Assembly (NCBI GenBank): GCA_011033025.1
Contig: WFMF01000022.1
Coordinates: 62,001 to 126,000 of the forward strand
Direction of reading: 5' to 3'
DNA length: 64,000 bases
DNA from: Beroe forskalii
Taxonomy: Eukaryota > Ctenophora > Nuda > Beroida > Beroidae
This document shows, piece by piece, positions 39,465-63,812 of this stretch. Both the position numbers and the translations under genes were made by a program. Positions within the stretch are counted from its first letter, which is position 1, and each line of letters starts with the position of its first letter. Under the pieces are notes generated by a model. The model did not search any database, had not been told where the DNA came from, and saw only the letters and a list, made by a program, of their open reading frames with translations.

Positions 39465-41144
39465 TCACTGAGTGTTGTCGTAGTAGCACATAAGCCTTGC
39501 CTTGTGAGTGTCTCCCCACTGCCAGCCGCCCCATCGTATCTTGCTCCCCAAACCTTCCCCTGGCTCACTGAACTGAGGAGTTCCTCGAGCCCATGAGATT
39601 TCCATGTTTATCCCATCTTCCTGACCGTCGTTAAACATTTCCACCACAAAGTGCATCCGTTCTGGTATCACAATATGACGATGATAGTGCATTTTGTGTT
39701 CCGTGTATAGAGCAGGATCCTGGACGACTTCCAGTTTGAATTTCTCTGATGTTTCTTTGCCAAATGGGGTTATTTGAACTAAGATGCCACATTGTGTGGG
39801 TAAGATAACACAGTTGGTTGTCCTGGGCCGAGGAAATATGAACTTGTGGACCTTTTTCTCCAGAAGGAATTTCTTGGGTGTAGTTATTTCATCACTGATC
39901 ATTTTTGTGTGGTTAGTATCACTGCAAAGTGCAGGACACTCCTTTATCCATTTCAACTTGTCGGGACACTCATTCAACCAGTAGAGACTGCTAAGAAATG
40001 CGCGAGGGATCTTGGTCCAGCCACGGGTTTGGATGGTTGAGATGACTTTCTTCAGGGACTCATCAGTGAACTTCTCCCATGCCCCAAACATGTCAACAGA
40101 TTCCAGCATCATGAAGAGGCTCTTAACTTCCGATGACAAGGATAGGATATCGAGGAAGTCATCAAAAGGCAAGTCATCCATTATATCATAGCATTGGAAA
40201 ACGTGATACTTTGATGGCAGAAGTTTCAGCTCTGTCTTGCTTCCCATACGTTTCAGTGACTTCAGAGCACGTGAAGCAAAGGACACAGTATCTGACCTTG
40301 TGATAGTCTTTACTTTAGGATCAGTCTTAGCTTTCAACTTTGCTGTAGCATCTTTGTGGAGCTGGTTTACAAGGGTTTTATCTTGTCGACTAATGTCATT
40401 CGTTTTCTTCAGAATCAAATCGATTACCTCATTGTACAATGTCAAATCCAGCTCCATACACTTCACCAGATCAAGCTGCTTCAGCAATTGCCGGGATATC
40501 CAATCAAACAGCTGGTTCTTGGACACATTTTTCCGGATTATTCTCAAGAATACAGTGTAGTCTGGTGGATCAAGCTCAACAATCAGATCCACCTGTGCTT
40601 TGGAAAAACTAAGATATCCCACATTTGTGTAACGCTCAATAAATTCAGATAGCTTGTATTTAGAACCCTTGATTTTCTCCAGCACTTTTTCAATGTAAAC
40701 AGTGTCACCAATGTGGATTTTAATCGAGCATGCTTCCTCAAAAAGCAGGAACATATCATCGACATCATCGTCACCCACATTCTCCAGCAGCTTCATGTAA
40801 TAGTCATGACACTTCAAAATCAGCCAGGCTACTTTAAAAGTGCTTGCCAACTTGCTGAAGTCCCTGAGATCATGTTTCTGGATGGTGATCCGGCCAGTGT
40901 AGAGCGATTCCATGAAGAGTCTCACCACACTAGGAGTGTATTCCCTCATATCCAGGACTCTGCTGTCTTCCTTCCTGAACAGATCGACAAATACAGGGCT
41001 GTTCAGGGACAAGATGATGGAATTGACAAGCAACTCTGAGTACCCTTCCAACTTCAGTGTTATGTTGCCATGCAGCTTTGAGTTCAGGTTTTCAATTCCA
41101 AAGTCAGCTGGAACGATAACTTTGGCTGGCAATTCTTCATACAT
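39465..41144 (-). CDS. BTB/POZ-domain protein, single long exon
   Basis: From the first in-frame ATG (41144-41142) the frame encodes 559 residues. A BTB/POZ fold is visible at about residues 25-115: the pattern ITLKLEGYSELLVNSIILSL, then FVDLF, LDMREYTPSVVRLFMESLYTGRI and FSKLASTFKVAWL. A helical BACK-like region follows, then a long C-terminal part ending in an aromatic-rich segment (IRWGGWQWGDTHKARLMCYY) that I do not recognise. BTB proteins typically dimerise and often act as cullin-3 adaptors; no Kelch repeats or zinc fingers are present here. TTTTCTAG|G just before the ATG looks like a 3' splice site, so an upstream exon is possible. The apparent extension to 41210 begins at GTG and is not a likely start. 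Confidence 0.8.
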   Translation of the reverse strand: MYEELPAKVIVPADFGIENLNSKLHGNITLKLEGYSELLVNSIILSLNSPVFVDLFRKEDSRVLDMREYTPSVVRLFMESLYTGRITIQKHDLRDFSKLASTFKVAWLILKCHDYYMKLLENVGDDDVDDMFLLFEEACSIKIHIGDTVYIEKVLEKIKGSKYKLSEFIERYTNVGYLSFSKAQVDLIVELDPPDYTVFLRIIRKNVSKNQLFDWISRQLLKQLDLVKCMELDLTLYNEVIDLILKKTNDISRQDKTLVNQLHKDATAKLKAKTDPKVKTITRSDTVSFASRALKSLKRMGSKTELKLLPSKYHVFQCYDIMDDLPFDDFLDILSLSSEVKSLFMMLESVDMFGAWEKFTDESLKKVISTIQTRGWTKIPRAFLSSLYWLNECPDKLKWIKECPALCSDTNHTKMISDEITTPKKFLLEKKVHKFIFPRPRTTNCVILPTQCGILVQITPFGKETSEKFKLEVVQDPALYTEHKMHYHRHIVIPERMHFVVEMFNDGQEDGINMEISWARGTPQFSEPGEGLGSKIRWGGWQWGDTHKARLMCYYDNTQ

Positions 41145-44100
41145 CCTAGAAAATATTTGGATAAGTTGGGAGTGCTTAATGATATCAATTAGCCAAAAAT
41201 TCCTGTCCACTACTTAGACTTTTCATGATTTCATGAAACCGTTCCTAATGAATGAAATTGTGTATTCCCAGGATAAATTCTCTGTTGAAATAGCAGTATC
41301 TGTTCAACAATATATTTACTTATTTATACATTAAACAACTGCTCAGAGCCGTCTAACAACAATTGTCACAATTACCCTAGGCATCTCGAGTCAAAGTAAC
41401 AAGTTATTAACAAAATGCCATATGTAATGCATTTTAGCCTGGTTCAATAAATTAGAGAATGTCTTATATGCCAATTCTCTGAATAGAAACTAATCCTACT
41501 TCGTTCGGCTCATTTTATGTAATTACAAGATAAATTAGCTTAGCTTTGTTGGAATTAAACAATCGCCGGTCGTGCCCATCACACACAAACTGCTCGGAAA
41601 GTTATCTTGTAAAACTGGCATTGAATTAACGTTGCATGAATTGTTCTGCTACTGCAAGTTCATCGAAAAGTTGTAAATATAGCACAGTTGTGATAGGTAC
41701 TTAGGAAGTGGGTAGTGCTGTATCCAATAATAAACTAGTTCAGTAAATTTTGCTTCATTAAGTCATATTATGGACTCCTGATAAGATTACAGGCATCAGA
41801 TAGAAAATTTTTAGGCGAACTATTCATTGTTTTGCATGTTTAAGACTGTATGAAATTGGCTATCTGAAAGGTGTACTGTAAGTGTAATATATGAAATAGA
41901 TCAGAACATTCATTACATGGTTAGACAAAGTCAAATAAATGTCAGAAGAGGGAAATATTTAGCCATTCAAGCGTGACTAGAAAGAGTAGGTAGTTGAAAG
42001 TCTCTGAAATCAAAAGAGTTATTACATTATTACAGACTTTGATAATTAATGCTAGGATCAAAAAAGTGTATCCAAAGTCTAAGCAAAACAAGAACCCTAT
42101 CGAAACAACACTCATATACCTATTCGCATACCCGGATCATAACGAAAATATTCACTGATACATGTCAACTATGACGATGCTAAAGTTGCATAAATTAACA
42201 TAATATACACTCCATGAATACAATGAGCGAACTCCTACAACAACTGAGCAGGACACGGAAGCTCACAAAGTAAGTGAAGATGTTGTTGGCACTGAAGCAG
42301 AGATGCGGTGATTTGTAACAGTTCCAGGGTGAGTCATGACAACACATATATATCCTTATTAATATATTATCATGTTGCATGGATGACAACATGTCCTTTA
42401 CAGTATATATTATCACAACATACATATATAATACAGTGCAAGAAGTGTGACAAAATACTGCAGTGAATCACGACATCAAGGAGCTATGACGAGGGTAGGA
42501 CCAATCACCGTCCACCACGTCATAACAACTTGTGTCATCACAAATGACAACAATGGAAGTCATGTTCCAAACAACTGCAACACATCATAACTCACTGCAC
42601 GCTGTCCTTATCATAGTACATGATGTATCATTATACAGTAACACACAATGGTGCTGCATTCATTCAATCACCCAACATAGCAAATCACATACAGATTCCA
42701 ATCAACTAGACACAATACCACAATACTCCAGGGACGCGATGACTTGAAGCTTCTTAAGAAGGGTTTTTATTACAGCTCAGGTGTCTCTAGATCTTGATAA
42801 TTGATAGCTTAATAGGCCAATTAGGACTGCAGATAAGTAATTGTATTATTCAGTAAATATGAAACGGCAGTGTGTTGCCAATGCTGTCGATTAAAATTGA
42901 TCAAAGGATGTGTAGCTAATTTCCTAATTTGTGAAGTATTATTGAGTCTAATTAACACAGCTATCATCAAGTTACTTTTCAGTAAAATATTGCACTTAAG
43001 CATATAGATGTACAGTATGTTGTTCACTATTCCTCTATTTCAATATTCTTGACTCATAATGTAACTTCAAACTTGGCAAAATCATCATAACAAAAGTTAC
43101 AATGACAAATCGGTAGTAAATTCTCCTCCAATCTTACCATATAAGGCGATATAAGAACCGTTTCAACACCTTATATGGTCTAATTAAAGTTTAGTACTGG
43201 TAGAGACCACTGGTCTGCCCTTGCAAGGAGAAGCCACAAAGGAGATAGCCTGACAACTACCCTTTTTTTTCAAGAAGTGAGAAATGTGTTGATAGAATTC
43301 GTCATTAAAATAAGTAGAATATTTATTTATAAAGTGATTTCTGGGGACTGTACATATTACTCCCCGACTTATAATGTGTAAATATTATATAATGTATATA
43401 TTATGGACTATATAATTAAATATATACGTTTGTGGTAAAATACTTCACCACTTTTATAGAGGGTAGTGCTCTGCAGCCTGTTTAGCCTGCATTGTCAAGC
43501 CTGGAGTAAATTTTCACGAATAGAGGAAAAGTATAAGGTAGACTTATTATAATTTAAATTCTCAAGTATGTCTAAAGCGAAGCGAGTATAATTGTTCAAT
43601 GAAAATTGTATTGAATGAGCACATACCATGCTCCTTTCCTGCATATATCAGCTTCTTTGAAGTTCAGTTCTCTCAATTATACATCAAAAGTATTGATAAT
43701 TCTCTAGAAAATGAAAATGTAAAATCACATTTTGAATGCGTAGGTATATAAAGGAAATGCAATAAAACATACGTTGACAGAATAAAATGGTATTTATCCC
43801 AAAATAGCCCATTAATAGGTTTATAACGAACTCATATCGAGGCAAAGCGTGTGATAAGGACGCCAATATATAACTCAATAACCTTACAAATTGACTGAAC
43901 ACAAACTTTGGCTTCCTTAACCACACACGTATCAACTTGGTGGATAGTGAGCAAGTGAACATACCATTTCTTTATAGCTGTAAAATATTTCCTTGTGGTT
44001 TTCATACAAACCAATGAAAATCAAGATAAGGATTCATAAACTCTGGTTTTCGTTAAAGTCATAAATTTAATGCTAGGTTTCACTTTGATCACCATCAGCT

Positions 44101-47232: not shown

Positions 47233-50200
47233 TCATCCATCCTGTTCCTGCTTTATTTTTGGTTCTTCCATATTTACTTTTCCTACACCTATCTCATCTT
47301 TAAACTTTTGGAATGCTACCTGGTACCCCACCCTGTCATCCATATTTTCTAAGTAGACAAAAGCATTGAACTCATGAAGTTTCTGTCCCTCCTTATTATA
47401 GTGAAGCATGTGGAAGCAGTGGAAGCAGAAGAAACAAGGGCTAGAAGGAGCTTCTTCATCATTGTATGTAATCCACCTTGCTAGACGTTCTGTGCAGATT
47501 GTACAAGAGATACGTCTTGGTCCACCACGAAATACCTGCCAAAATAAAAAGTTTGTACATTTGTTCTGGTGCTGATTCATGGCCATGATACAAAATATGA
47601 TAAGTTGCATATTATGTATATGTTGGGATTTTAAACCATGGTAAAATGGACACCAGTAATATAGTATTACTAGTCTAGAGTCACACCATAAATTTGATGG
47701 AATATATTGCCAACCTGTCTGGGGTAGTTGGCAGTACGTGGTTCATCTCCAGGATGAAAAAGTCTAATTTGCTCTACAACCACAAGATGTTCACATCCCC
47801 CCTGGTGAAAGAACACATATGGTAGACCTAGGTGAAGCTCTAAATCTTGGAACTTGGTCTGAGTGATGTCCCCTTGTTTTTTGACAGGTTCCAGGCCCCT
47901 GTTCAAGTTCCCAACATGTAAATCTAAGAACTTAGTTATCTCTTCAGAATAGTCTATGTAGCCCGGTGTCCTCTTGTCAATATAGATAGTGTCTCCTAAG
48001 TAAAGAGCACTAGAATTACGTGTCTTGGTTATCCAGTCTACATCATTTAGCATAGGATTCTCACTGAAATGGTCAGTTATAAACTCATTAATATAGATAT
48101 TGACCTCAGTAAGAGACTTATGCCATCAGTTTCCATATCAAAATGCCTACTGACTGGGTGAGATACCCAGTGGAATAATATGGGGAATTTAGGAATTAAA
48201 TTCCCAGTCAAATTTCCAAATAAGAAATCGAAAAAAGCTCAAGTTCGAACGAAATGAGCCTTTCTGGACACATTCTGTAATTGATGCACTCAAAATCATG
48301 AAATTCATAGAGCCCCGGTTGGAATAACCTGCAATCCTGGCAATCCTAGCTGGGCAACATTATTTGTTAAAGCAACCATGAAATTTCAGAATTTAACGAC
48401 TTAAAATTAGGTGTGCAGCTACAATTTTACTGTTACATCAGTCAGTTTTCAAAAATGGAGAGTGAAACGTGCAATCATAGTTTGCTACTCACTGTATCAC
48501 CATCAGTATGCAATGCATAAAATTCCCATTTTATTCTTAGCACTAGTCAGGATTAGAAACACTGAATAACGTACATAACGTTGGTATCATTCATATTATG
48601 ATATTACACCTTCTCGCTTTAATAATTACTGCAGAAGGGATATGCGTAGTCTATCTACTTCCCTCATAATATCCAGCATATATCCAGAATTCCATGGACC
48701 ATGCTAGCGCAACCAGAGCAACCCAACTTGTTACTTTTTTCGGAGGATTGTAAGCGGAGCTTACAATCCTGGAGGCTCTCTAGCAATCCTGGTTGCGATC
48801 CTGGTTGCAGCTGATTAGATTATTGTGAGGGTGAGCTGTAGTAAAACACTGCTGCTGACTCAGCAGCAGCTTGCAAGCTCTCTAAAGCGGTGGTTGCACT
48901 TCCAGTCGGCATGATCTGATCGAGTTTTAACTTTTAAGGAGTGGACTTAATTTTAACAAAAACAAAAATCCAATTAGAAATAAAAACCAGGAGTATATCT
49001 AATATTCGTATTCAAGATACAGCGACACATAGACAATATTAAATCATGATCAATATTCAGCCTGAAATTTGTTTTTTCGAACTCCTGTGTATGAGTAAAG
49101 GTGACGTTTTGACTCACTTATCAAACAAAAAATCTGTGCTTCCATTTTTTAGGATAGTAATATATCAAACGACCGCCTTTTTAGCTGATTATATTTGTTA
49201 GTTATTAAGTTATAAGCCTGACACACAATTGATCTTTGAAACATGAACATTTACTTTTTACAATTCATCAATTGGTTGAGTAAAAGAATTGTGAGCAGTG
49301 AGTAAGTGATTCAAATTTTGTCTGTCAGGTGGAAATAATTATGAATTACATAATGTAGCCTACTCGGGGCTTCTGAATCAAAAAATTAGAGATTTTTGAA
49401 TGAAACACGCTGTTTAAATCTCGGATATTTTCTTGCTCAAATGAAGGAAAACCCTGCAAAATTATACATTTTTAGCAAAATTTTCCGGGGGCTTCGCCCC
49501 TAGACCCTACCAGGGGCTCTGCCCCTGGACCCCATGGGGCTGCGCCCCAGACCCCTACTGCAGCTTCGCTCGGCGCGCTTCGCGGCACCTCGCTCGCAAC
49601 CAAAAGCTACCGTGCTCGCTTCGCTCGCACAGGATTGGCAACCAGCCTAACCTTTATTCCAACCGGGCATAGAGCTAAATACCATAATCGACCTTTCCCA
49701 GTGCCTAATCCGAATCCAGCAGCTGCATTCCCACCACATTCCCAAACCGTCCATCATATTCCTAAACCAGCCACCGCATTCCCAAACCAGCCACCGCATT
49801 CCTAAACCAGCCGCGATATTTCCTTGTGTTTGACTTGGGTCAAACTTTTTTAGTGAAAACTATCTAAATAGCCATCATAAACAATTTGAAATAATTACCA
49901 TATTCAATGAAAAACATTTTTGCACGTTTCTACTGTTTCTCTAGCTAGCAATCGAACTTATTTTTTTAGTGAAAACATGTCAAAACCAGCTGGTCTTTAC
50001 CCCAAGCTGAAAAAGCCACTTTTTACTCTTATTTACAGATTCCCAGCCACTTTTTAAAATTATTCCACTGGGGTGAGATACCTGTTATCTTGCCAGCAAA
50101 GAGCCAGGTCCATGGTACAGTCAATAGCATCAACAAAGTCTGCCAATGTTTGAGATCCCAACATTAATAAGCCCTTGGTTTTGATGAGTCTGTTTTGTTT

Positions 50201-51004
50201 ATACACAGCAATTTGTAGCACTACTTCAGGAGTTGTAACTAGCTCAGTTTGGTTGACCTGATTAACATCTATCAAAGTTTCAAGAAATTGATTCATCTTC
50301 AGATTATATTTCATTGTGCTAATGAAAAATCGCATATATATTAAAGCCTTCAGATTAAAGATGGAATAAAGGTGAGTAGTCATAAAGGGCAGTACCTGCA
50401 ACTGAGCTTCATAATCAAGAGATATGTTTTCCTTTTCAAATGGCTTGTAGTAATTTAATGTCATCTGCTTCTTAAGAGGGTGTTTTTTATCTGCTTGGAT
50501 CTCTCTGAAGAATTTGTATGCATGAAGTTGTTTGGGTATGAGCTTATCTCTTTTTTCATCATAAAAATCACTGTTAGCTGGGGGCAGAATTTCGCCAAGG
50601 AGTGCATTAGGAGTTAGAAGCTCATCATAAATTTCTGCCTCATCCAAGGAGATACCTGTTGCAAGAGCAGCAGTTTCTGATACATCATCAACATCCAGAA
50701 CAATCCCTGAAATCAAAACAGAAATAAAGAATAAGACCCACAAGCTAGAATAGTTTTGTACAATCTCTTGCTTTACCATGATATGTGTAATTTCATGTAT
50801 AGGTGATGTAACTGTGAGTATGTTTGTTGATAATAATATATGGTACCTATTAAAGGGACATGAATGATGCATATTAAAGGACCAACCATGAGAAGGGAAA
50901 ACAGATTCTGGCACCTCTTTGCTCCATAATTCCTTGTAGTGTTGAATATTAACTTGAAAGCCTATTTTAGATAGATTCTGATCCTTCCGTCCTTTGGGAG
51001 GCAT
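47233..51004 (-). CDS. SNAPC3: snRNA-activating protein complex subunit 3, five exons
   Basis: SNAPC3 is the DNA-contacting core subunit of SNAPc, which binds the proximal sequence element of snRNA genes for pol II and pol III. Exons on the minus strand: 50887-51004, 50396-50706, 50082-50296, 47715-48063 and 47233-47535, all in phase, giving 431 residues (human 411). Conserved blocks are the GSQTLADFVDAIDC segment, LGLPYVFFHQGGCEH, and a C-terminal zinc-binding region with C-T-I-C, then RWITYNDEEAPSSPCFFCFHCFHMLHYN. The second intron (50297-50395, 99 bp, multiple of three, open frame) could be retained, and its acceptor is weak. The third intron (48064-50081) contains a 1.35-kb transposon. 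The start ATG at 51004 is the first in the open frame. Confidence 0.93.
48314..49667. mobile_element. Non-autonomous TIR transposon, 1,354 bp, 8-bp target duplication
   Basis: CATAGAGC occurs immediately outside both ends (48306-48313 and 49668-49675). The ends are inverted repeats starting CCCGGTTGGAATAA and becoming imperfect after 14 bp, with a further shared CAATCCT. The interior has no transposase. It contains a 12-bp-stem hairpin (48744-48770, AGGATTGTAAGC / GCTTACAATCCT) and a GC-rich hairpin series near the right end. An 8-bp duplication fits the hAT superfamily, although the terminus is not the usual hAT sequence, so class assignment is tentative. It sits in SNAPC3 intron 3. Confidence 0.85.
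49485..49630. repeat. Series of GC-rich stem-loops inside the TIR transposon
   Basis: Successive self-complementary words occur within 150 bp: GGGGCTTCGCCCC, CAGGGGCTCTGCCCCTG, TGGGGCTGCGCCCCA, then CTTCGCTCGGCGCGCTTCGCGG. Composition contrasts sharply with the AT-rich intron. Confidence 0.75.
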
Positions 51005-51619
51005 TTCATGGAACAGGCCAATAGCTCAATAGATTCTGAAATTAGCTAGTTGCAAGTTGTTACATCAAGTCACATGTTGTCTCTCAATCATTAGAATAGT
51101 TGTTCATTCAATAACAGCGAGAAAACCTTATGAACTGGTTGAGTGGTTGAGGTCAGTCATCCAAGTTTACTGATGAATACTCAAAAATAAAATAGATAAA
51201 ACCAAACAACTTCTTGGTAGAACAAATACAGTCAAAATAAAATAAAATAGAATATCTTCTTTGTAGAATAGATACAGTCATCTTTGTAGTCAAATGGGTT
51301 CCAGCACCCTTAAAATTTTAAAGGATCCCGGGCCCAAAACCCTAGCTCCCTTTTTATAATTTTTTTTTACTAAGGAAAAAATGAATGAAAATAACCAAGA
51401 TGAAAAGACAAAGTCTTAAAAAGGGTGAGGATGAAATCTCAAAAAGGGAATTTGGACAATTTAAAAAGGTTTGAAAAATGCATTCCTAATCATTTGAAAA
51501 CCCAGGTGGGTACCTAAGGGTTTTTGAAAATAAAAACATAAATCTAAAATCATTCCCCAAAAAAGTAATTTTTAAAAACTCACTCAACAAAACTAAATAG
51601 TATGAAAAAAATGCGCTTC
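51005..51619. other. SNAPC3 5' flank
   Basis: AT-rich sequence without exons. An imperfect tandem pair (CTTCTTKGTAGAAYARATACAGTCA) lies at about 51210 and 51255. It must include the SNAPC3 promoter; no clear core element is seen. Confidence 0.4.
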
Positions 51620-51689
51620 ATTAGTTTTGTGATTTTTTATCAAAACTCTTTAAATTTTTCCCAAAACCTAGAAAAATAGGGGAACAATA

Positions 51690-52496
51690 AAATTCACATC
51701 TAGCGATCGAAATAATATCATCTGTTAAATGATCACGATCCGTTGAGTTGACCACAGCCCTACAAAACCAAATTTGATTTTGTTTTCTGGGATCACCGTC
51801 ACGTTTCTTCTTCAACTCTTCAATAAGAGTTTTATGTGCGGCGTTAAGTCCATAATTCTATCGGTCTAATAAGACTGAACTGAACTTCTGTAGGTTCCGC
51901 AGCTTCTTGGCCTGCACTAGATGTGTCTAGATATTACTCGTACCGACAACACCTTCACACTGGTCTTGGCTTCTGGTCCCGGTCTTGCCCACACGACAAA
52001 CCTCAGCAGCAGGTTTGATTCCCAGCTCGAACACTTCAGCACCTTACCAGACAAGTCCTCATCCTTTTCTTCAGGCACACCAAACAACATCAGGTTCCTA
52101 CTCCTATCTTCTTCCTGAACAACATCATAACTACACTTTTCAGCGTCTGCTGACTGATCTGCTTGCTGATTCACCTGCTTTTTTACAGCCTCGCTGTATA
52201 TGTGATTGCTCTTCAACAGTCTTCGTTACTGATTCCGTCACCGCACTCTGTACTGAGTTCAACATCTTGTCGACTTCCGACCTTGCAAATAATCGTCCTC
52301 GCATGCTGATGAACAATAATAACAAGCTTCTGCGACTTCATTGTCTTCCTTTCAACTCTCAGCACTTTGTGGCGTAACATGGGGTCGGATCGTCATAAGG
52401 TCAACTCCGCCATTGCCCTCCGAGCCAAAGACTTGCCCCCACCAAATCGTCAATTTCTCTGTCATTAGAGGGCTTTGTAGAAGTATTTGCAGCCAT
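51690..52496 (-). pseudogene. Decayed LINE ORF1 (coiled coil plus RRM-like type)
   Basis: Starting from ATG at 52496, pieces in different frames give a typical LINE ORF1 order: a coiled-coil part (SEVDKMLNSVQSAVTESVTK), then DRSRNLMLFGVPEEKDED, which resembles the start of the RRM-like domain, then a C-terminal piece with KKKRDGDPRK and RAVVNSTDR. Several frameshifts and stops separate them. No adjacent reverse transcriptase of the same element is visible, so this is a truncated relic, distinct from the LINE at 53-58 kb. Confidence 0.65.
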
Positions 52497-52499
52497 GGT

Positions 52500-53320
52500 A
52501 TTTAGGAATACACACAGCCACTATTTAGCTACTATTTAGTTCTTTAAATCTTTAATTAGAATGTTAATAATGTTCAGGATTATTTAATTGTTTCGATCAT
52601 TTTTATGAACAGTATGAATATTCAATTATTTTTACTGGCCATTTTCTTTTTCTACTTAAGTTAGGGGGAGGGTAAGAGCCCTTGCTCAAGGGATTGAAGT
52701 TAAAACGAAAAAACTGATACCTACGAAAGGATTGTAATCAGGAGCTTTCGAAAATCTTGTGATTATCTTCGTAAGCTGAAAGTAAAGTATAGAGCAGTTT
52801 TTAAAATATGAGTGATTGAGAGTGTCAAAGGAGGGTGAAGGGTGTTAGGTGGGTGGCAGCTCAGAATAAAACAAAATTTTTCAGAATAAAACAAAATTTT
52901 CTATTGACATTCCATTAATCATTCCTACATACTGGAAAATATATCAGAACAAATATCTTGTCTTGCTGAGTATTAGAGGGCATAGGGGTGTTGGTGTTGT
53001 GCAATCAGAGTTTGTAAACAAGATAATTCATTTTCCTAGGCTCAGCTCATAAACTTAATAAGGACCTTCCACTTGGTATTACAAGTGGGCTCTAAAATGA
53101 GGGGCGGAATGCAGGGTCACAGGGCTTGAAGCTTGTTGTTTCCCTTTAATGAACCATCATTTAAAGCAAGGATAATTTTATAAATCAAGAGTATATATTC
53201 AGGGTGAAGGTGTTACAGTTATATATATTGAACTGAACCTAGTTATTGACTGCCTTTTGTTCATAAAAGATTGCCAATAGTGAGTTTAAAACAAAAACTA
53301 TATATAAACAAATTATAATA
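52500..53320. other. Spacer between two LINE remnants
   Basis: AT-rich with no supported exon. A short direct duplication of CAGAATAAAACAAAATTTTTC is seen at about 52862-52900. If SCAPER starts close by, its promoter and first exons should fall in this area, but I could not recognise them. Confidence 0.4.
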
Positions 53321-53641
53321 TATAACCAAAATAAGTTTTATTGAATAAATAAATAGCATAATTTGATTAGAATATTAGAACATATTCTAGTTTTCCTTTG
53401 TAACAAGGGCAACCCATAAATCCAGAGAATGGTTTTGATTATTTGAGGATCTGTGAATGCGACTACTGCTTGAAATCAACTAAATATGATAGAGGTTTAA
53501 CTTAATGCTATTCCAACAAGATCTGTCCCATTCATGTGGATCACCGTCTGCCTGGATCTCCAACAATTTCTTTTGAGCTCAGATTTTATTGAGAGGATTT
53601 GGTATTAAGATCATACATTTTGACAAGGTCACGGACAACAT

Positions 53642-56600
53642 TCAGATTATGCTTCCACGATATCTAAAAGTTTTCGTGGGCATTGGTGTCAGTAAATATG
53701 TGTCTTTCCCAGCCCTTTTAGAAAGTTCAAATTTGCTGTAAATTCCCATTGGTGATCTAAATTTGAGAATTTTAAACATTTCGTTTTCCACAGTGATATA
53801 CATATAGGTTTTGATGTTCATTATCAACTGTGAGTTGAAAAGTGGCTTGGTGTGCTCACGCCCGTAAAATTTTTCATCTAGATGTTGCTCCCCATATGGG
53901 CGAACTCGTGCACATGTTCTGAATTTATCAAGATATTTTTCTTTATTGCCAAATAAGATCCGAATGCACTTTTTCTGCATTCTAAATAGAGGTTCGAGTT
54001 TTATGTTACTGACACCACCCATACTGTTATACCATAAGTGAGATGACTTTCAAATAATGTATAGTAGATGTTTTTAAGAAGCTCATCTGGCATGTTGTCT
54101 TTGATGACATTTATAACCCCAGTACTACATGATAGCTTTTTAGTTAGGTTCCTTATGTGAGCATTCCAATTAAGTTTCTCATCAATTGTCACCCCCAAAA
54201 ATTTTGTTTCTAAAACTCTATCAATTTCATTTTCATCAATTTTCAATACATAATCTGCAGTGTCATTTTCTTGGAGTTCAGTGGGTTTAAAGTCAATGTA
54301 ACAGCATTTAGACATGTTTATGTGCAATCTATTTAGGAGCATATAGTAACTAACAGATTTAAGAATTTCATTTGCTTTTTTTGTAGACTTCTATTTTATC
54401 TTTACCACTAACAAATATATTTGTGTCATCTGCAAAGAGGACAAATTCAGCATCAATTTGGGCATTTGAAATATCATTAATGTACATTAAGAAGAGTAGG
54501 GGACCAAGGCAGCTACCTTGAGGCACTCAAATATTACTGGTAACTTATCTGAGATTTCATTGAGAACGCTCACATATTGTTTCCTATCTGACAAATAGCT
54601 CTCAATTAATTTCAATGGGATGCCACGAATTCCATAAATTTCGAGTTTTTCAAGGAGTATTCCATGATCAATTGTATCAAATGCTTTGCTTAAGTCAATA
54701 AATATACCTAATACATGTTTTTTGTTTTGAAGTGATTGATTTATGTGGTAAATTGAATAATTAAGTGCATGTGAAGTTGAGTGACCCTTCCTAAAACCGA
54801 ATTGATTATCTTTAATTACTCCATTTGATGCAAAAAAGCTATAAAGTCTGGTGTAAATAATTTTTTCAAAAATTTTCCCAAATATTGGGAGTGTAGACAC
54901 AGGCCTATAATTTTCTAATAGTTGTTCATTATCCTTCTTATACACTGGGGTAACTTTCCCAATCTTCAGGCATGAGGGGAATACTCCCTCTGACATTAAG
55001 TTATTAAATTGGGCTGTAAGGATTGGTGTTAAAATTTGGGAGAGTTTTTTTATTACTCGTATGGGAAAATCACTTGCCTTGCCATTCTCAAGTTTGCTAA
55101 TAATTTCAGCAACTTCCTCTTCAGTGCAGTCCTCAAGAAAAATGCTCTTCTCAAGGGGAGGGGGCATAAATTTTCTAAAGGAGTTGTTGACCACATTGGC
55201 AGTTGAATCTAGATTTACTTTGTCATTGAGATTGGATGCTAAGGATGCAAAGTATTCATTAAACTTATTTGCAATTAAGCGGCGCTGTATGATGACTGTG
55301 CCATCAATCATGAAGTTTGGCTTTGTAGCTTTTTTGCTCTTGCCTCTCAATTGGTTTATCACTTCCCACGTCTTTTTGATATCCCCAGAGGTTTTTTCTA
55401 TTTTATTTTTGTAGTACTTAGCCTTTTGATCTTTAATGATTCTTTTGAGGGCACGCCGGTATTTACTAAAATTTTCATAAAGAATTTGGTTACCTGTATC
55501 AACTGCATTTTTCTTGGTCTTAAACCAGTCAAGATATAAATTATTCTTGTGTTCAATGGCATCAATTATTCCATCAGTTATCCAAGGATTGTTGACAGGA
55601 TTTCTTTTGGAGTGAATAGCTTTTTTCAATTTGCAGCACTGGTCGACACTATTCAAAAATAATTCAAAAAATGACTCAAAATCTAGTTCTTTACAAACAT
55701 CAATTAAGTCACCATTCAGTTCTTCATACAAAGCCTCAATATTTTCATTCGAATAACAGTATTCTTGTATCTGGATACCGGAGCTGTGATTTTTGCCAGA
55801 AAAGTCTATGTTAAAGAATGAGAATATAGGTGAGTGGTGGCTCCCCATATCACGAACAACTCCTGACAAGCAAACAGCCCCAATATCACTCACTAAGATA
55901 TTGTCAATACAGGTACTCTGTCTACCAGTGCTATGAGTGGCTAGGGATACCAGGGGGAATAAACCATTTGAGAGGAATATATTTTCAAAACTAAGCACAG
56001 ATGGATCTAATCGTTTGAATAAATTAAAGTTAAAGTCACCCATTATTATTGATTTTTTTTGGAAACTGTTCAATTAATGAGGTAAACTCTTCAAAGAACT
56101 TTTCATTATCCCCATTTGGAGATCGATATATGGTCCCAATATTTATGTCCTTACCCTCATTTTGAATTGTTAAAAAAAGTGATTCCATATTTGAGGAGAC
56201 TGAACTAAGTTTTTCATTTACCACTGCACTAAATGCATCATGGACGTACAGAGCAACTCCAGAGCCTTTTAGTTTTTCCTTTATTTTTTCACCATAAAAA
56301 GCTCTGTAGTTGTCTATTTTGAATAAGGATGATGTTTCATCCTTGTCTATGTTAGTTTCGGCTAAACCAATCACTGAAAATTTCATTGATATTGTTGAAA
56401 GTTCTGAAACAAATGTGTCAAAGTTTGATTTATTACCATCTATGTTGTAGAATAATGTGCTGAAGTCCATTGCTGAATCCAGCTTCAATGCCTCTAATGA
56501 ATTCGCAAAATAAGTTTTGCAGTTGTCTAGTATTGTAGCAGTATCCTGAATGATTGAGATCTCTTCCTGGACTTCACGGTCATAGAAGTGATCAGAATCA

Positions 56601-56836
56601 GAGATACCGTTTGCTTCATTATCATAGTCACCAAATGGAGTATACCTTTTTGGTATGGATAACATGCAGGTTTGACACATTTGTTTTGCGTTGTGATATG
56701 AAAATTTCGATTGCTTGTAGCATTTTTTTATGGACAATTTTCGAGCAGTTTTCACAGACCATATATCGATGACCAATAAGTATGTTTCCCTTGCAGCAGT
56801 CGCATTTCTCTCTCTCTCTATATCAACATTCATCAT
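53642..56836 (-). pseudogene. LINE ORF2: zinc finger, AP endonuclease, reverse transcriptase (frameshifted)
   Basis: From ATG 56836, a treble-clef-like Cys/His cluster (KCDCCKGN, MVCENC, HKKC, CQTC) is read only if a GA-run shift (about 56808-56819) and an extra base in a seven-T run (56723-56729) cancel. The endonuclease follows with GLAETN, GVALYVHD, IYRSPNG, IMGDFNF, IDNILVSD and SHHSPIF, so the catalytic Glu, Asp-Asn and His are kept. The reverse transcriptase has [44 protein letters not shown] and FLGVTID. Shifts occur in T8 at 56053-56060, near 54537, T7 at 54376-54382, at CCC 54018-54020, and near 53643. The protein would nick DNA and copy the LINE RNA by target-primed reverse transcription. 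Confidence 0.85.
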
Positions 56837-56858
56837 ATCAAAGAATTACAGATGTGAT

Positions 56859-58424
56859 CTAGATTGGATTTTCAGGGCCTCCCCTTGTTACATTTGCATA
56901 TGATCTCCTATCAACAGACTTATTCCTCTTAGATCTGAAAATTGCTTGTTTTATGAGACTGACTAACAAACGCACACCTTTAGTGTTGTTGATGTGGAGC
57001 ACATCATTTCCATCAGCAACTGAAAGATCAGCCCTGAGTAAATATGACTGGTTGTTTACAAAACCGGAGAAGCCCTCCACAAGGACTGTCTTGAGATTGG
57101 ACTGGATGAGATCATTATAGATGTACTTGTTAAACTTGAAGATCCTCTGATTGATGACTGTAGACTTTGTAGGTAGTACAGGACAGATGAAGATCTTTCC
57201 CTGGGGGTTGTGGTGACGGATTTGAGTTATTTTAAGCTTGTATAGCTTGTAGAGTTCACGGATCTCAGGATCTGACATGTTGTTTTTCAAATTATTTGTG
57301 CCCACCATAACAACAACATTTCTGAATGCTGAGCAAGCAATTGGATCAATGTCAGCAACTTTTGGAGCGAAGGTTCTGACACCTGGAGTGGCTTGTCCAA
57401 CTTTTCCCTTTCCAGATCCAAATTGGATCTTTCCAAAATTAGAATCCCCAACCAGGATGGTGGAGTTGAAGTTGGCCCAGTGCACAGCACGGAATGTCAG
57501 ACTATATCTCGTTGCTGAATTACCCTCAGAGTCAGACTCAGCCTTCATCTGATGTTTGAAGTAGTCCTGGCTAACCCGGGTCATCTCGTACATACTTCTA
57601 CTCATGCAATGTACTGGTGTCTCCAACCCACTGCCCAAGTTACGAAATGTTATTGTACGAGTTGATCCAAGGGAGACAGTGAAGATAGAGGACCAGGGAC
57701 ATATATCACCCTCATTATCAGAGTGCTCAGGCAATGACGATTCATTACCCTGGTATCTATTTACCAAACATGAGTTCAGTTCATAGAGGTACCTTTTGTC
57801 TGCTTGCTTCCTTGGTATGGCACCATTGATTTTATCCATGACTTTCTTTATTACCTCTGGACAATCTTTTGGCTTAGTCTTTGACCCCATATACTTGTAG
57901 TACTCCCCATATTGAACCACACCACGATTACCCTCCATAACAAATGTTTCATTTTCAAGAAATTCAGTTATTTCTTGCTCTTCTTCTTCACTGATAAAGC
58001 CTTCAATGAAATCTTCAATGTAGTTTGATTTGTGTGGTGGTATTGAGTCTTCGATTTCAATTGGAGTAGGGGATGGTGATGTTGGGCTTGGGGGTAACTG
58101 ATCAAGCTGTGGCAATGGGGAGTCTCTAAAGGCTTCAATTTTCTTCTCCAGTTGCTCAAGTTGTGTTGCAATAGCACTTATTGACTCCGTGTTGACATTG
58201 AGAATATTAGATAGTTTTGAGTCCACCATATTTTCAAAGGAGCTGGTGACAGTTGAGAGAAAGGTGTTTGCCTGATTAATGTTTTCAAGTGAGGTTTTAT
58301 CCTTTTCAGACTTGTGGGTTTTGGGACAGGGGAATGGAACAACAAAACACCAGGGACACATCCAATGGCGCAGCTGTGACGAGAAAATCAAATAAACAAT
58401 GATACAATAATTATAGCAAGACAA
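56859..58424 (-). CDS. LINE ORF1 with AlkB-like dioxygenase fused to SGNH esterase
   Basis: The open frame of 521 codons has no in-frame ATG proven as start. A Cys-rich fragment HWMCPWC near residue 20 may be the end of a PHD-type finger, followed by a coiled coil (about 45-100) and a proline/acidic linker. Residues about 160-315 match the AlkB 2-oxoglutarate/Fe(II) dioxygenase layout: LNSCLVNRYQGNESSLPEHSDNE gives the H-x-D pair (H234, D236), FKHQM the second His (H291), and RYSLTFR the two Arg of the co-substrate site (R306, R312). Residues about 322-495 form an SGNH hydrolase: GDSN (Ser328), VGTNN (block III) and DGNDVLH (Asp474, His477). SGNH esterases are known in ORF1 of CR1/L2-type LINEs; an AlkB domain beside one is, to my knowledge, unusual. 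It may repair or demethylate alkylated element RNA or cDNA, which is inference. Confidence 0.8.
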   Translation of the reverse strand: MSCYNYCIIVYLIFSSQLRHWMCPWCFVVPFPCPKTHKSEKDKTSLENINQANTFLSTVTSSFENMVDSKLSNILNVNTESISAIATQLEQLEKKIEAFRDSPLPQLDQLPPSPTSPSPTPIEIEDSIPPHKSNYIEDFIEGFISEEEEQEITEFLENETFVMEGNRGVVQYGEYYKYMGSKTKPKDCPEVIKKVMDKINGAIPRKQADKRYLYELNSCLVNRYQGNESSLPEHSDNEGDICPWSSIFTVSLGSTRTITFRNLGSGLETPVHCMSRSMYEMTRVSQDYFKHQMKAESDSEGNSATRYSLTFRAVHWANFNSTILVGDSNFGKIQFGSGKGKVGQATPGVRTFAPKVADIDPIACSAFRNVVVMVGTNNLKNNMSDPEIRELYKLYKLKITQIRHHNPQGKIFICPVLPTKSTVINQRIFKFNKYIYNDLIQSNLKTVLVEGFSGFVNNQSYLLRADLSVADGNDVLHINNTKGVRLLVSLIKQAIFRSKRNKSVDRRSYANVTRGGPENPI

Positions 58425-58440
58425 GAAGATGTGTCAGTAG

Positions 58441-59600
58441 ATGGAGAAGTGGACTCCTGAGTCTGTGGGTTTGAAGGTAGGGGAAATCCTAGGGAGAATA
58501 AGATTCCAGAGGGGACTGCACTTGGGGGCGCTGTCTGTTCTGTTGAGGGTAGGTTTCCTTGTTGAGATGGCAGCCTGTTCTGTCAGATCTAGGTGGGAGT
58601 GGAAGGGAAGGGCCCTGAGGATGTGGATGTCGTTCCAGGCGATGTTGTGTCCGGTGGTGATGAATTGAAGAGCTGATCAGTTTGTTGAAGGAGGCAAGGG
58701 ATTGGTGGTTGGAGGGTTTGTTAAACTTCTTGGAGACTTCTGACATGATGGCGGTGATGTGGGAAGGAGGGAATCCGCTCTGGAGGAGGGTGTGTTGTAC
58801 TGTCTGGAGTTCTGTGTCGAGGTGTCGAGGAGAGCAGAGTTTGTAAGCACGTTTCGTCAGTGATCTGATGACACTGTCCTTGGAGGATGTTTAGGTGCAG
58901 GAATTGTAGCCTGTGTAGAGGTTGGTGTGAGTGGGTTTCCTGTAGACCGAGATGGACTTGTCAGGGTGGATGAGGATGTCGAGGAAGGGTATGGTGCCGT
59001 TGGGAGAAGGGTGTTCCAGAGTGAAGGCCAGGTCGTTGGTGAGGGAATTGATGAATGTGAGAAAGTGTCTGCATGAAGTCCGCCTCTGAAGGATCCCAGG
59101 CCGTCGTCAACGAAGTGGCAGTAGGAGGGCCAGGAGAGGTGAAGAGGGCTAGTTCTTCAACTTCTGCTACTCTGATCTCTGCTAGTTGAACCCTCAGGGG
59201 GAACCCATAGGACCACCAACAGTCTGAGAGTAAAAAGAGCCGTTTAACTCAAGGTAGGTGTTGTCGAGGCAGAAGGTGATGAGGGAGCGGATGGGGGCGC
59301 CAGGTTTGTGGATCTTTGGTTGTCCATAGAGCTGAGGCAACCGAGGATGTAGATTCCGCATCTGCTTGAAGAAGGAGGAGTCGATCTTCTCCTTCAGGAG
59401 TTTCTTCAGGATGGCGTAGAGTTTGTTCCTGATAGACTGGGTGGGGTCGGATTTCAGAGGTTTGTAGCTACCTGAAGTGGTCGTTAACCTTGTCAATGTA
59501 TTGTTGGTTGGTCAGGAAAATGGCAGCGTTGCCTTTGTCAACAGGAAGAAAACGAAGTAAGCCATGATTACGTAATATTCTCCACAAGAGGGGGGGGGGG
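58441..59600 (-). mobile_element. Penelope-like retroelement, internally deleted and frameshifted
   Basis: Minus-strand pieces in order: FLPVDKGNAAIFLTNQQYID (about 59555-59500), then LPQLYGQPKIHKPGAPIRSL and TVGGPMGSP of the Penelope-type reverse transcriptase (59194-59496). Further fragments at 58950-58800 correspond to the distal RT, and SGFPPSHI at about 58790 follows. Finally TTGHNIAWNDIHIL plus RKPTLNRTD (about 58670-58540) match the C-terminal half of the GIY-YIG endonuclease, including its conserved Glu and Asn. The Cys-rich linker and the GIY-YIG half itself are missing, so an internal deletion is likely, with several frame changes. It is not functional. Confidence 0.75.
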
Positions 59601-59714
59601 GTTGGGCTTTGATTAAGTTTGATAACAAGGGGGAGGGAGGGGGTTGAAAATAGCCAAAAATTGATTACATGATATGTGAACGATCCCTTAGATAGTGATT
59701 TTCTTATACTTCAG

Positions 59715-62700
59715 GGCTGTTGGTTACATCTATTCAATGTGTGAACAGGATGGTGATATTGAGGAATGCAAGGTAATCTTCATTTTATAATTCTTTCGAT
59801 CATCAAATTCAATTCAATTCAATTCAATTTATGATGTAAACCATGTGATTGTAAATCCACTGGAACTTGGTATGTATCAAGTTCCTGATACAAACCAACA
59901 TATCCACTATTTTATAAGTGGATATATAATCAATTGAATATTTTCACTCAATGTTCAATTGATCTGACATTGGACAACTTATTCAAAATTCACGTCATGA
60001 CTGTTTTGTTATTTTGCAAGAAGACATGTTTTTAAAGTATTCTATGAAATATTATCTTCTATTTTGTTATGTTGCTACAATTCCCATTACCCACCTCTTC
60101 ATAGACAAAGTTTTATGTGGAAACGAGAGTAACTATTTAAATTGTTTTTAAATTGTTTTTACAGTATTTTGTAAAATATGTAATATAATCTTTCAGCTTC
60201 AAAAGTCTAATAAATTGCAATTTTCAGGAAGCAATTATGGTTCTGCATAATAGAATCAAAGAATTTGAAGGTCTTATTCAATATATAGAAGTACAAGCAT
60301 CATATGAGACCTCAGATGAAAGGCAAGTCTATTAAACTAATATGCTATATCTCCAGAAATATGATAGCAAACAATTTTCTAAGCCTTAGCTAGCCATAGA
60401 ATTTGGTTAATTATGTGCAATAAGAATTCCCTTTTGATAGTCTGCAATCTATCCCAGGCCAAGTTCAGTAGCATGGGAGGTGCCAGTTTCTGCAATAAAG
60501 CAACCAAGTCTGCCTTTTCAGCCTAATGGAGACCCCCAATTATATTATTACCAGTGTCTACCCCAGGTATATTAAACTCTGAACCTATTCCGATTTCCAA
60601 CTATAAGTTTAATTTTCTGTATTCAGAAGGTTACCCTCATACAATGGAATTAATATTATATACTTACTGTATGAATTAGGCTATGAAGCTTGTGAGAAAC
60701 AATTTGTGATAGGTAGGTAGGTATTTTCATTTACAATGATTTATTGAAGACGCCCCGGGGGTTCTGGCATGTGAAATAAACAATTTAGTTTCTGCTAACA
60801 TGTAAAACTAAAAAGAAACTATTTCAGGCATATACTCAATATTCTATGACGGGGACCTATCCCATGATGGATCCCAATTTAGTCAACTATATGCCATACA
60901 ATCAGCAATATACTGGGTATCCAACAGACTACACCGCTTCAAGTGGATCTTCTCAACAACAGATGCATCAATATCAACAATATACCAATTACACAGATTT
61001 TACTAATGTCAGTCCATCTGCAAGTAATAATAATAAGACTAGCAAGAAGAGTTATTCCAAATCACGTCGAGGTAAACATGATTATTATAAAACCCAGAAC
61101 CCTGAAAATAATGCTACAGTTGTCCCACAGATACAAAATCTCAATGCACTTGATGTTCCTGTGGATACAGTGCCAGGTACTGAAAATGATGTAAATAATC
61201 AGACAAAATCAGAAACCACTGATAACACAGGTTCAAGTTCCTTGCTATTAAGCACGAATCCCAGTGATCACAAAACGAGTAGTAATTCAGATAAGACAGT
61301 GGAAGACCAGAGCGAAATGTCAGTATCGGATCCAAAAATTAGTTCTGTTGAGAACATCTCATTAAATGAACCAGCTGTTGATGTCCAAGAGACCCCAAAA
61401 GTTAGTTCTGTTGAGAACATCTCAGTAGATGAACCAGCTGTTGATGTCCTAGAGACCCCAATTAAGACCTCTGAGGTTGAAAATGTTCCTTCCTGTGTTG
61501 ATGGTAATTGTACTGCCATAGATGAAAAAATTGCTGATGCAATTGATGATCACAGTAGCCTTGATGATGATTCTTCCTCAGTCAAGAATGATGTGAAAAA
61601 AGCAGAATGGACAGTTGTGAATAATGATTCAGAAAATTATGTCCATATATCGGAAAACTTATCAGATCATAGCATACCAACAAGTCCTAACAGCAAAGAA
61701 AATGAGCCACTCAATAGTGAAGAAAAACTTAGTGATATGAATCCTGGAATTGATTCGGAATCTCCTAATTCAAGTACTGATGTCATTGATCAAGATGTTG
61801 CAACCATCGACAACTGTTTACAGAATGATGAAAATTCTCATAATATGGAGCAAACTAATAATGAATCTGAGAATGTTGTGATAGCCAGTAAACCAACTGA
61901 GACAGAGATTGAGAATCATGACAATGAAGAGCCCATTCCATCTTCCTCTTTGGATGGTGATAAAACCAGAGTTGAAACAACTGAGTCAGAATTAACTGCG
62001 GATATAACTAGTGTTTCTGGTAGTAACATTGAGTTAGGTGAGAATGACAAAAAGATTTCTGTTGAGGATAACGTTGAAAAATCAGAAAGTAAAGCTGAGG
62101 AAAATCCGAGTCAAAATACTTCTGTTTTAAAACAAGAATCTAAGAAGCCTTCTAATGCTCAGATTTGTGATGTAAAAAGCCATGAAACCAAGGAAAAAGT
62201 TGTAAAAGAGTCGGAAATTGATCCTCATTCTACACCTCAGAAACCTCTTGCATCCAAACCTGTTTCTAAGCAATCCAGTGAGCAGTCAGAAAATGCACCT
62301 GCTAAAGAATTGAAACTATCCTGCAGTTCAGAAATGACTGATCTGGACACCAAAGAGGTTGATCTGCTATCAGAGTCTGGACTGTCTACTGTTTCCTCAG
62401 GCTCTGTTCAGTCTTGCATGTCATTGCCAACTAACCCTCTTGCCAGATCAACATCTTGGGCTGACCTTGTCCGAAAAGGTAAATCTGATAGTCCTGTTCC
62501 TGGTGCCCCAACGAAACTAGCTTTATCTGCAAAGTATCAGTCTACTCCTAGTAGATATCTCTCACATAGGCAATCTGATGTCAAAAATGTCAAACCTGCT
62601 GCCCAGCTTGCTTTGACAAAGTCAAAATCAGTACCATCCCAAAGAATGTTAACGAAAGCTCCTATTTCCAGAAAAACCACTGCACCCAAACCTAAGGAGC

Positions 62701-63812
62701 CTCATATAACTGAGGATGGTTGGTGCGTGTCATCAGGTAAGGGTCGATTCAAAACCCTTGCAGGAGGGCCCTCCAAAGTTTCAAATGCAGTCATAAAATC
62801 AGGAGATGAGAAAGCATCGAATGATATTTCCAAAAACATATCAAATAGCAATGACACTAATTCCAAAGCAAAGGTTATTGATGCTACGACCAAATCAAAG
62901 GCAGGTGATGTTACTGACAAGCCAAAAGCTCCCAGAGCGTCTAAAGTAAAGACTACTACTTTTAATAAACCTATTTCTGGAAAAGTTAACTCTCGAAGCA
63001 GTAGTGCTGGAATTGCTTCTAAAACTAGTCCTAAAATAAATGCCATGGCAAAAGGTCAAGCTGTAAATGAAACCGGCCCTAAAGTGAATACTGGCATTAG
63101 GTCCCATATTACATCTAGGAGTAACTCTATTTCAAAATCAACAAGAATGGTTTCAGCCAAAGTTGACAGTGGCATTTCAAAAAATGTAGCACCTAAGCCA
63201 TTGACTAAAACAAAATCTCTTGAAAGTCCAACAAAACTTTCAGACAATCTCAAAGTAAACAACTCCCAAATGACCAAAAAGGCAAAAAGCTTAGATCCTC
63301 TTGAGAAATCTAAATCTACAGAGGACTCCACAACAGACAAAAGTGAGTCAGGTTCAACAGAACTGATATACTCTGAAGGAGCTGATGAAATTAACAAAGA
63401 AGTCAAGGAAATCACAAGTGAAATCATTCAAGAGTTTACTGAACCAATGAACGAGAATAATGCAGATCAAAAACCCGATGATGAGGCAATGAATGCACCT
63501 GAAGCAGAAGCTGTAAAGCCTGAAAGTGCGACTGTTGAAGATATTCCGCAAGGAAGTGACAGTAAGGATCAAGTTTCTGAAGCAAAAGATCAAGTGGCTG
63601 TGCCTAACTCTCTGGTTCTCGTTCCAAGACAAGAGGTTAGATATCTTGCATCAAATATTGGTTTTCTCACTAATGAATCACAAATGTACCTTATCGGACA
63701 TTGTTTGGCCGTACATAATAATATGGGCGCTGAAGACCTAATAGTGCTCATAATTATGTCCACCCAAATCAATACCGACCATTTAATGTCTGGTCATTCG
63801 AATGTCCGCTAA
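59715..63812 (+). CDS. SCAPER: SCAPER homologue, N-terminal part (gene continues past the window)
   Basis: SCAPER is an ER-associated cyclin A-binding protein also linked to cilia and translation. Plus-strand exons: 59715-59772, 60228-60322, 60458-60566 and 60828 onward. The first three encode AVGYIYSMCEQDGDIEECK, EAIMVLHNRIKEFEGLIQYI and RPSSVAWEV, a clear match to the conserved SCAPER N-terminal domain. All phases agree. The intron after 60322 uses a GC donor (AG|GCAAGT). The fourth exon is very long: a Tyr/Gln-rich start, then about 900 low-complexity Ser/Asn/Lys/Glu-rich residues with a duplicated 63-bp unit (about 61336-61470), then STSWADLVRKG (about 62446-62478) and a DGW segment (62713) that also occur in SCAPER. 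The open frame ends at 63812, but the true exon end is uncertain; GTTAGA at 63636 and GTAAGG at about 63562 are candidate donors. Earlier exons were not found. Confidence 0.85.
59804..59829 (+). repeat. (AATTC)n microsatellite
   Basis: Five copies of the pentamer AATTC lie in an intron of SCAPER shortly after its first recognised exon. Confidence 0.85.

Follow-up and report, generated by a model that had tools for sequence, protein, structure and literature searches.

The window analysed here is a stretch of 64,000 nucleotides from the ctenophore Beroe forskalii (contig WFMF01000022.1 of assembly GCA_011033025.1, positions 62,001 to 126,000 of the forward strand). It holds a copy of a long interspersed nuclear element (LINE) in which the first open reading frame (ORF1) joins an AlkB domain, a 2-oxoglutarate (2OG)-Fe(II) dioxygenase, to an SGNH esterase. 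The AlkB domain has its full catalytic set, is under purifying selection and is inherited with the esterase across a large, diverged set of elements. An earlier note, made from the letters of the window, had placed the two domains side by side in this ORF1; profile searches, predicted fold, residue conservation, many genomic copies and purifying selection all bear the pairing out. ORF1 probably belongs to a CR1/L2-like LINE, as judged from its type. Every LINE copy described comes from this single animal genome.

AlkB and SGNH domains of ORF1

The Pfam profile 2OG-FeII_Oxy_2 (PF13532) matches residues 164-312 of the window copy (E = 9.1e-14), its 52.6 bits lying above the cut-off of 31.2, and ALKBH2 or ALKBH3 accounts for 15 of the 18 phmmer matches at E ≤ 1 among Protein Data Bank sequences (top E = 2.3e-6). 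The structure prediction that the earlier note had proposed as a check yields a double-stranded β-helix of ALKBH2/3 type for the AlkB domain, and ALKBH2 is the top match of the window copy by sequence as well as by fold. The profile search proposed alongside it is clear for AlkB only; the esterase match (Lipase_GDSL_2, residues 342-422) stays under its cut-off, with 23.2 bits against 32.9.

The AlkB alignment comprises 45 retroelement and four host rows, with the duplicates L001, L043 and L045 and the split L025 left out. Iron ligands and the 2OG-binding pair are conserved throughout (Table 1), with 44 rows at H291, R306 and R312 because the frame of L052 stops before them. E238 is found in all 45 retroelement rows, Y224 in 44, M281 in 42 and N217 in 38, the last with deviations in classes C3 and C5 (described below). 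A second alignment takes the 26 of these loci with long ORF1 frames, from classes C1-C3, and has a mean column identity of 24%. Its 23 invariant columns include E238 and the five residues that the earlier note had assigned correctly, H234, D236, H291, R306 and R312, each present in 26/26 proteins. The same AlkB residues are still invariant in an alignment with eight bacterial and IMG/VR AlkBs instead.

The Ser/Asp/His set read directly after AlkB also holds up. S328, G375, N377 and H477 are invariant columns of the 26 ORF1s, and D474 occurs in 24. The SGNH profile of class C1 matches the ZfL2-1 ORF1 esterase 4c1b (E = 2.8e-6), alongside other SGNH hydrolases; the class C2 profile reaches 4c1b at only E = 0.46.

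Copies and classes in the genome

The window's own assembly (216 Mb, 1134 contigs) contains 88 matches to the ORF1 protein, many in open frames of 600-860 amino acids (aa), and at least 150 matches to PF13532, every one above cut-off; the latter is a lower bound, with 150 of 189 candidates scored. Fifty distinct loci were read (L001-L052 less repeats, where L001 is the window copy and L043 and L045 repeat L002 and L005). Forty-five lie in retroelement-like frames and five are host-ALKBH-like (L009-L012, L025). Among the latter, L010 and L025 are near-alike ALKBH3-like frames on contig C592, the AlkB region of L025 being spread over two frames.

The 45 retroelement-like loci, fragments included, were sorted by eye into five classes. 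C1 (n = 20) has a PHD-like finger, a coiled coil, AlkB and SGNH; C2 (n = 16) has a short N-terminus followed by AlkB and SGNH; C3 (n = 5) has a different N-terminus before the same two domains. The order is reversed in C4 (n = 2; L015 and L024), where SGNH precedes AlkB and long proline-rich repeats follow. Both C4 domains score above cut-off (AlkB 78.3 and 72.3 bits, GDSL 43.2 and 33.9 bits, respectively). C5 (n = 2; L047 and L049) has long frames, with a clear AlkB in L049 and minisatellite repeats behind it. At E ≤ 0.01, Pfam finds PF13532 in all 26 long C1-C3 ORF1s, Lipase_GDSL_2 in 17, PHD in five and PHD_4 in three. Shortly before the C4 protein of L024, on its upstream side, a plus-strand frame (L024:405-824) holds the 2A-like (StopGo) motif DVEENPGP.

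The link to the second frame (ORF2) differs between classes. In C1, the downstream ORF2 frames of L044 and L050 (1154 and 1141 aa, respectively) match both endonuclease and RVT_1. Four C2 loci (L020, L023, L026, L033) have an endonuclease downstream. The link is less sure for C3, where L052 has RVT_1 about 2 kb past ORF1 and L037 is followed by an ORF2-like finger. No ORF2 was seen at any C4 or C5 locus read. As a separate observation, ORF2 of L002, L003 and L037 starts with a Cys/His-rich finger of its own, for which the C1_1 and PHD_4 matches of L037 are under cut-off.

A reverse transcriptase (RT) query from the window gives 84 matches, of which 82 places were used after the second piece was dropped at two of them. 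Judged by position only, 34 of the 82 places are preceded, on their own strand and at a distance of up to 7 kb, by an AlkB or ORF1 match, and the other 48 are not. The 34 include 26 PF13532 matches, 20 of them 1.4-1.64 kb away. Where the ORF2 frame has at least 1000 codons, 14 of 19 places have such a match and five do not. These five and two more AlkB-negative places were fetched (L053-L059), and no frame above 90 codons in them matches the AlkB profile. Five have no ORF1, and L058 and L059 keep just its esterase end. We read these places as 5' truncations, with decay as the alternative. According to the earlier note, copies of this LINE lacking AlkB would mean a chance insertion; none of the seven places read, out of the 48, retains a complete ORF1, so that an intact ORF1 devoid of AlkB was not encountered among them.

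Selection and joint inheritance

Selection was measured by the Nei-Gojobori method on AlkB codons of all pairs at least 55% identical, giving 62 mutually non-independent pairs (host, duplicate and fragmentary rows were excluded, and L002 stands for the window copy). For 60 pairs, no fewer than 990 of the 1000 codon bootstraps put the nonsynonymous proportion below the synonymous one (pN < pS); the remaining two pairs reach 982 and 847. The synonymous distance (dS) is saturated in most pairs. The 12 pairs with 0.05 < dS < 2 have a median nonsynonymous-to-synonymous ratio (dN/dS) of 0.14 (range 0.09-0.39), which is the purifying selection on AlkB that the earlier note had suggested looking for. 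In 19 chosen pairs compared by region, AlkB is mostly about as constrained as SGNH, and many of the pairs show weaker constraint in the N-terminal part. The window copy and L002 differ by few changes, with dN/dS of 0.17 for AlkB, 0.10 for SGNH and 0.72 for the N-terminal part. Chance insertion of the domain is ruled out by copy number, conserved catalytic residues and purifying selection.

Separate AlkB and SGNH trees of 29 ORF1s have 18 of 26 splits in common. In 2000 shuffles each, the maximum is four common splits for global and 10 for within-class shuffling, and the observed agreement is consistent with the two domains having been inherited together. The classes are connected through very long branches in the SGNH tree, which therefore does not demonstrate a single esterase origin for all of them.

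Origin of the LINE AlkBs

The AlkB tree contains 57 AlkBs, with the short L061 and the fragment L069 left out. C1, C2, C3 and C5 split from host and human ALKBH2/3, bacteria, phages, IMG/VR sequences and C4 on a weakly supported branch (70/87). C2, C3, C4 and C5 are each supported at 100/98 to 100/100, and C1 at just 53/0. The host loci L009 (ALKBH3-like) and L010 cluster with human ALKBH3, and L011, the host ALKBH2 (match to human ALKBH2 at E = 2e-64), with human ALKBH2. The idea that a host ALKBH gene was captured recently was rejected, as the host ALKBH2/3-like genes stand apart from the LINE AlkBs, albeit on the 70/87 branch. The phylogeny proposed in the earlier note thus sets four classes apart and leaves C4 with the host and bacterial AlkBs; given this placement and the weak branch, the tree does not demonstrate a single origin for all classes.

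Scans of other genome contigs yielded none and six bacterial AlkBs, respectively, and six phage records carry distant AlkBs; the SGNH part is absent from the phage records searched. Scans of viral contigs gave none, one and three loci, and L060 has no AlkB frame in the profile search.

Possible substrate and mechanism

The AlkB profile of C1 ranks ALKBH2 first, followed by ALKBH8 (E = 6.5e-11) and a DNA N6-methyladenine demethylase (E = 3.6e-8), with no match to ALKBH5 at a limit of E = 0.01. The C2 profile ranks ALKBH3 first and reaches ALKBH5 at E = 0.0035. The long loop of ALKBH2 holds its finger for double-stranded DNA (dsDNA). The corresponding F161-G173 loop has 13-16 residues in 42 of the 45 retroelement rows, the exceptions being one fragment and two C5 rows. 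In the window copy it measures 13 residues, against 21 in the host's ALKBH2; two ALKBH3-like rows of the host have 23-25, but host L012 has only 14. The window copy thus lacks the long dsDNA-finger loop of ALKBH2 type. Our evidence favours a putative ALKBH2/3-type activity on 1-methyladenosine (m1A) and 3-methylcytidine (m3C) over an ALKBH5-type one.

The ORF1 protein (ORF1p) is expected to bind RNA, and as an oligomer it would coat the element's RNA in a ribonucleoprotein. In this particle AlkB could act on the bound RNA template or on single-stranded cDNA, where it would oxidatively strip methyls at the base-pairing edge (m1A, m3C) and so keep the element's RT from being blocked or from miscopying. 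The esterase would probably serve this particle in a step that involves membrane or lipid; that AlkB and esterase are paired repeatedly points to both enzymes acting in one particle. Published work describes m1A and m3C as interfering with RTs and as stripped by AlkB treatment, with a modest effect on intact tRNA and better capture of most 3' tRNA halves (PMC12140624). On these properties we favour an ORF1 particle that would clear RT-blocking methyls, and we assign a probability of roughly 0.5 to the full explanation: an ORF1 of PHD-like finger, coiled coil, AlkB and SGNH that removes m1A/m3C from RNA or cDNA.

In a less likely alternative, AlkB would erase N6-methyladenosine (m6A) or another host mark on element or host RNA, so that silencing or sequestration by host readers is escaped. 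An orchid Ty3/Gypsy AlkB does demethylate m6A in single-stranded RNA in vitro (PMC9289625), and the C1 profile matches the DNA N6-methyladenine demethylase. The orchid enzyme is ALKBH5-like according to its authors, however, and the LINE profiles rank ALKBH2/3 far above ALKBH5. We consider it less probable still that the enzyme repairs DNA, freeing the nicked target or the newly made cDNA of alkyl lesions during target-primed reverse transcription. In both sequence and fold the window copy does come closest to a DNA repair enzyme, ALKBH2, but the dsDNA-finger loop is shortened in the LINE copies and RNA binding is what ORF1p is expected to do. Other 2OG oxygenases act on proteins, and there is a hint of chromatin in the PHD-like finger that this ORF1 also carries; it is nonetheless doubtful that AlkB oxidises a protein (ORF1p itself or histones) or just senses 2OG or oxygen, with an indirect link to nucleic acid, as its nearest sequence and fold relatives are nucleic-acid demethylases. 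Finally, a fusion by accident in a single dead copy, or the capture of a host gene that has no function, would suit the truncated and frameshifted window copy and is already refuted, with a negligible residual chance, by purifying selection and by catalytic residues conserved over 45 retroelement-like loci.

Dealkylation of the element's own RNA or cDNA is kept here as a plausible role, one predicted from sequence relatives. An intact AlkB, maintained by selection in many copies, would suggest elements that are equipped with an enzyme of their own against methyl damage or marks on their nucleic acid. We put at about even odds the broader view that a large, old LINE group has nucleic-acid dealkylation among the core tasks of its ORF1, through an enzyme of its own that goes with the esterase in both orders, such that template repair or mark erasure would be built into the retrotransposition particle.

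The window copy and its surroundings

The window copy is 98.2% identical to L043 on contig C314 over 5536 aligned positions (blastn). Its ORF1 frame (56859..58424, minus strand) runs for 521 codons without a stop. The start of this frame does not stand: compared with L002 and L043, the copy is cut off at ~58373, inside the PHD-like finger, so that the initial ~17 codons stem from flanking DNA and TTG is not the genuine start. ORF1 of L043 and L002 is longer (680 aa from ATG, 705 codons from stop to stop) and contains PHD-like finger, AlkB and SGNH; PHD_4 scores 20.3 bits in L043, under its cut-off of 30.6. An AlphaFold2 model of full-length ORF1 has a mean predicted local distance difference test score (pLDDT) of 53, falling under 50 over the SGNH part, which was left uninterpreted.

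ORF2 is broken over four frames, and the window copy itself is therefore dead. Pfam gives no match below E = 0.04 for the first ORF2 piece. The 6-nucleotide (nt) sequence GCAGCT occurs at both ends of the element and may be a target duplication or a chance match. A repeat search of window positions 50000-62000 found no long terminal repeats (LTRs) at the element's ends.

Directly upstream of the truncated LINE, fragments at 58450-59560 (minus strand) include a 100-aa frame without a Pfam match; judged from motif likeness, they may belong to a Penelope-like element. Elsewhere in the window, a 988-aa open frame at 60846-63812 (plus strand) has no Pfam match at E ≤ 0.01, and a 581-aa frame at 39465-41210 (minus strand) contains a BTB domain (E = 3.7e-11).

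Table 1. Features of the window LINE copy and of the C4 proteins
Feature	Position	Strand	Basis or remark
LINE copy, 5'-truncated	52860..58373	-	blastn of window against fetched loci
HWMCPWCF, final Cys pair of PHD-like finger, remainder lost	58344..58373	-	comparison with L002/L043
Predicted long helix, residues 43-100, read as coiled coil	58125..58298	-	AlphaFold2 of full ORF1, pLDDT ~56-66
AlkB (2OG-Fe(II) dioxygenase) domain, residues 134-325	57450..58025	-	profile, alignment, fold
Iron ligands H234, D236 (HxD)	57717..57725	-	45/45 retroelement rows
Distal iron ligand H291	57552..57554	-	44/44 rows reaching it
2OG-binding pair R306, R312 (R-x5-R)	57489..57509	-	44/44 rows reaching it
SGNH esterase domain; S328, G375, N377, D474, H477	56862..57449	-	Pfam, alignments, profile match to 4c1b
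ORF2 piece 1, N-terminal region and endonuclease start	56036..56836	-	location and resemblance to L002/L003
ORF2 piece 2, endonuclease end and RT	54487..56073	-	RVT_1, E = 8.1e-19
ORF2 pieces 3 and 4, shifted frames	54001-54342 and 53642-54022	-	within L043-aligned stretch
Two tandem 20-nt units, 3' end of element	52861..52900	-	repeat search
C4 proteins	L015:682-3408, L024:766-3393		reversed AlkB/SGNH order; genome frames of 1169 and 2026 codons

Comparison with known systems

The earlier note had placed an AlkB outside the known LINE ORF1 classes. In agreement with this, no report of AlkB in a LINE ORF1 was found among the matches listed for the open-access literature, a search that mostly does not extend to subscription papers, preprints and Repbase. 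LINE ORF1 esterases are described in several animal phyla, from the CR1, RTEX and Penelope-like clades (PMC3905857), and rotifer retroelements of different classes have esterase ORFs in common (PMC5408684). A survey of 448 Jockey-superfamily elements reports the esterase in vertebrate groups only, and its main text mentions neither AlkB nor a dioxygenase (PMC4120745); none of the terms sought occurs in a paper on gastropod non-LTR elements (PMC11203168). Acquisition of other enzymes is on record for insect LINEs, which have taken up viral helicases (PMC5563155; PMC6338049). The present elements add an enzyme unnamed in the LINE ORF1 classes covered by our literature search, and they make it testable whether RNA base methylations limit retrotransposition and whether elements evolve their own erasers.

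The orchid (Phalaenopsis) Ty3/Gypsy lineage, whose ALKBH5-like ORF is an m6A demethylase in vitro (PMC9289625), is likewise a retrotransposon with an AlkB enzyme and intact cofactor residues. It is, however, an LTR element with AlkB in a separate ORF, recent and of m6A type, whereas here a LINE carries an ALKBH2/3-like AlkB fused with an esterase in ORF1, in many diverged families. Plant RNA viruses of the Alphaflexiviridae, Betaflexiviridae and Closteroviridae also carry AlkB domains, for which RNA repair has been proposed (cited in PMC9289625). Going by description only, they resemble the LINEs as selfish RNA-based elements with an AlkB of their own, but belong to another class of element. 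The animal ALKBH2 and ALKBH3 differ in that the LINE AlkBs of C1, C2, C3 and C5 stand apart in the tree (70/87, weak), mostly have a shorter loop and are fused to an esterase. The LINEs with an esterase in a type IV ORF1 (CR1, L2, RTEX; ZfL2-1, 4c1a/4c1b) share the position of ORF1, the coiled coil and the SGNH triad; in contrast to them, the ORF1 described here places AlkB immediately ahead of the esterase and also holds a PHD-like finger.
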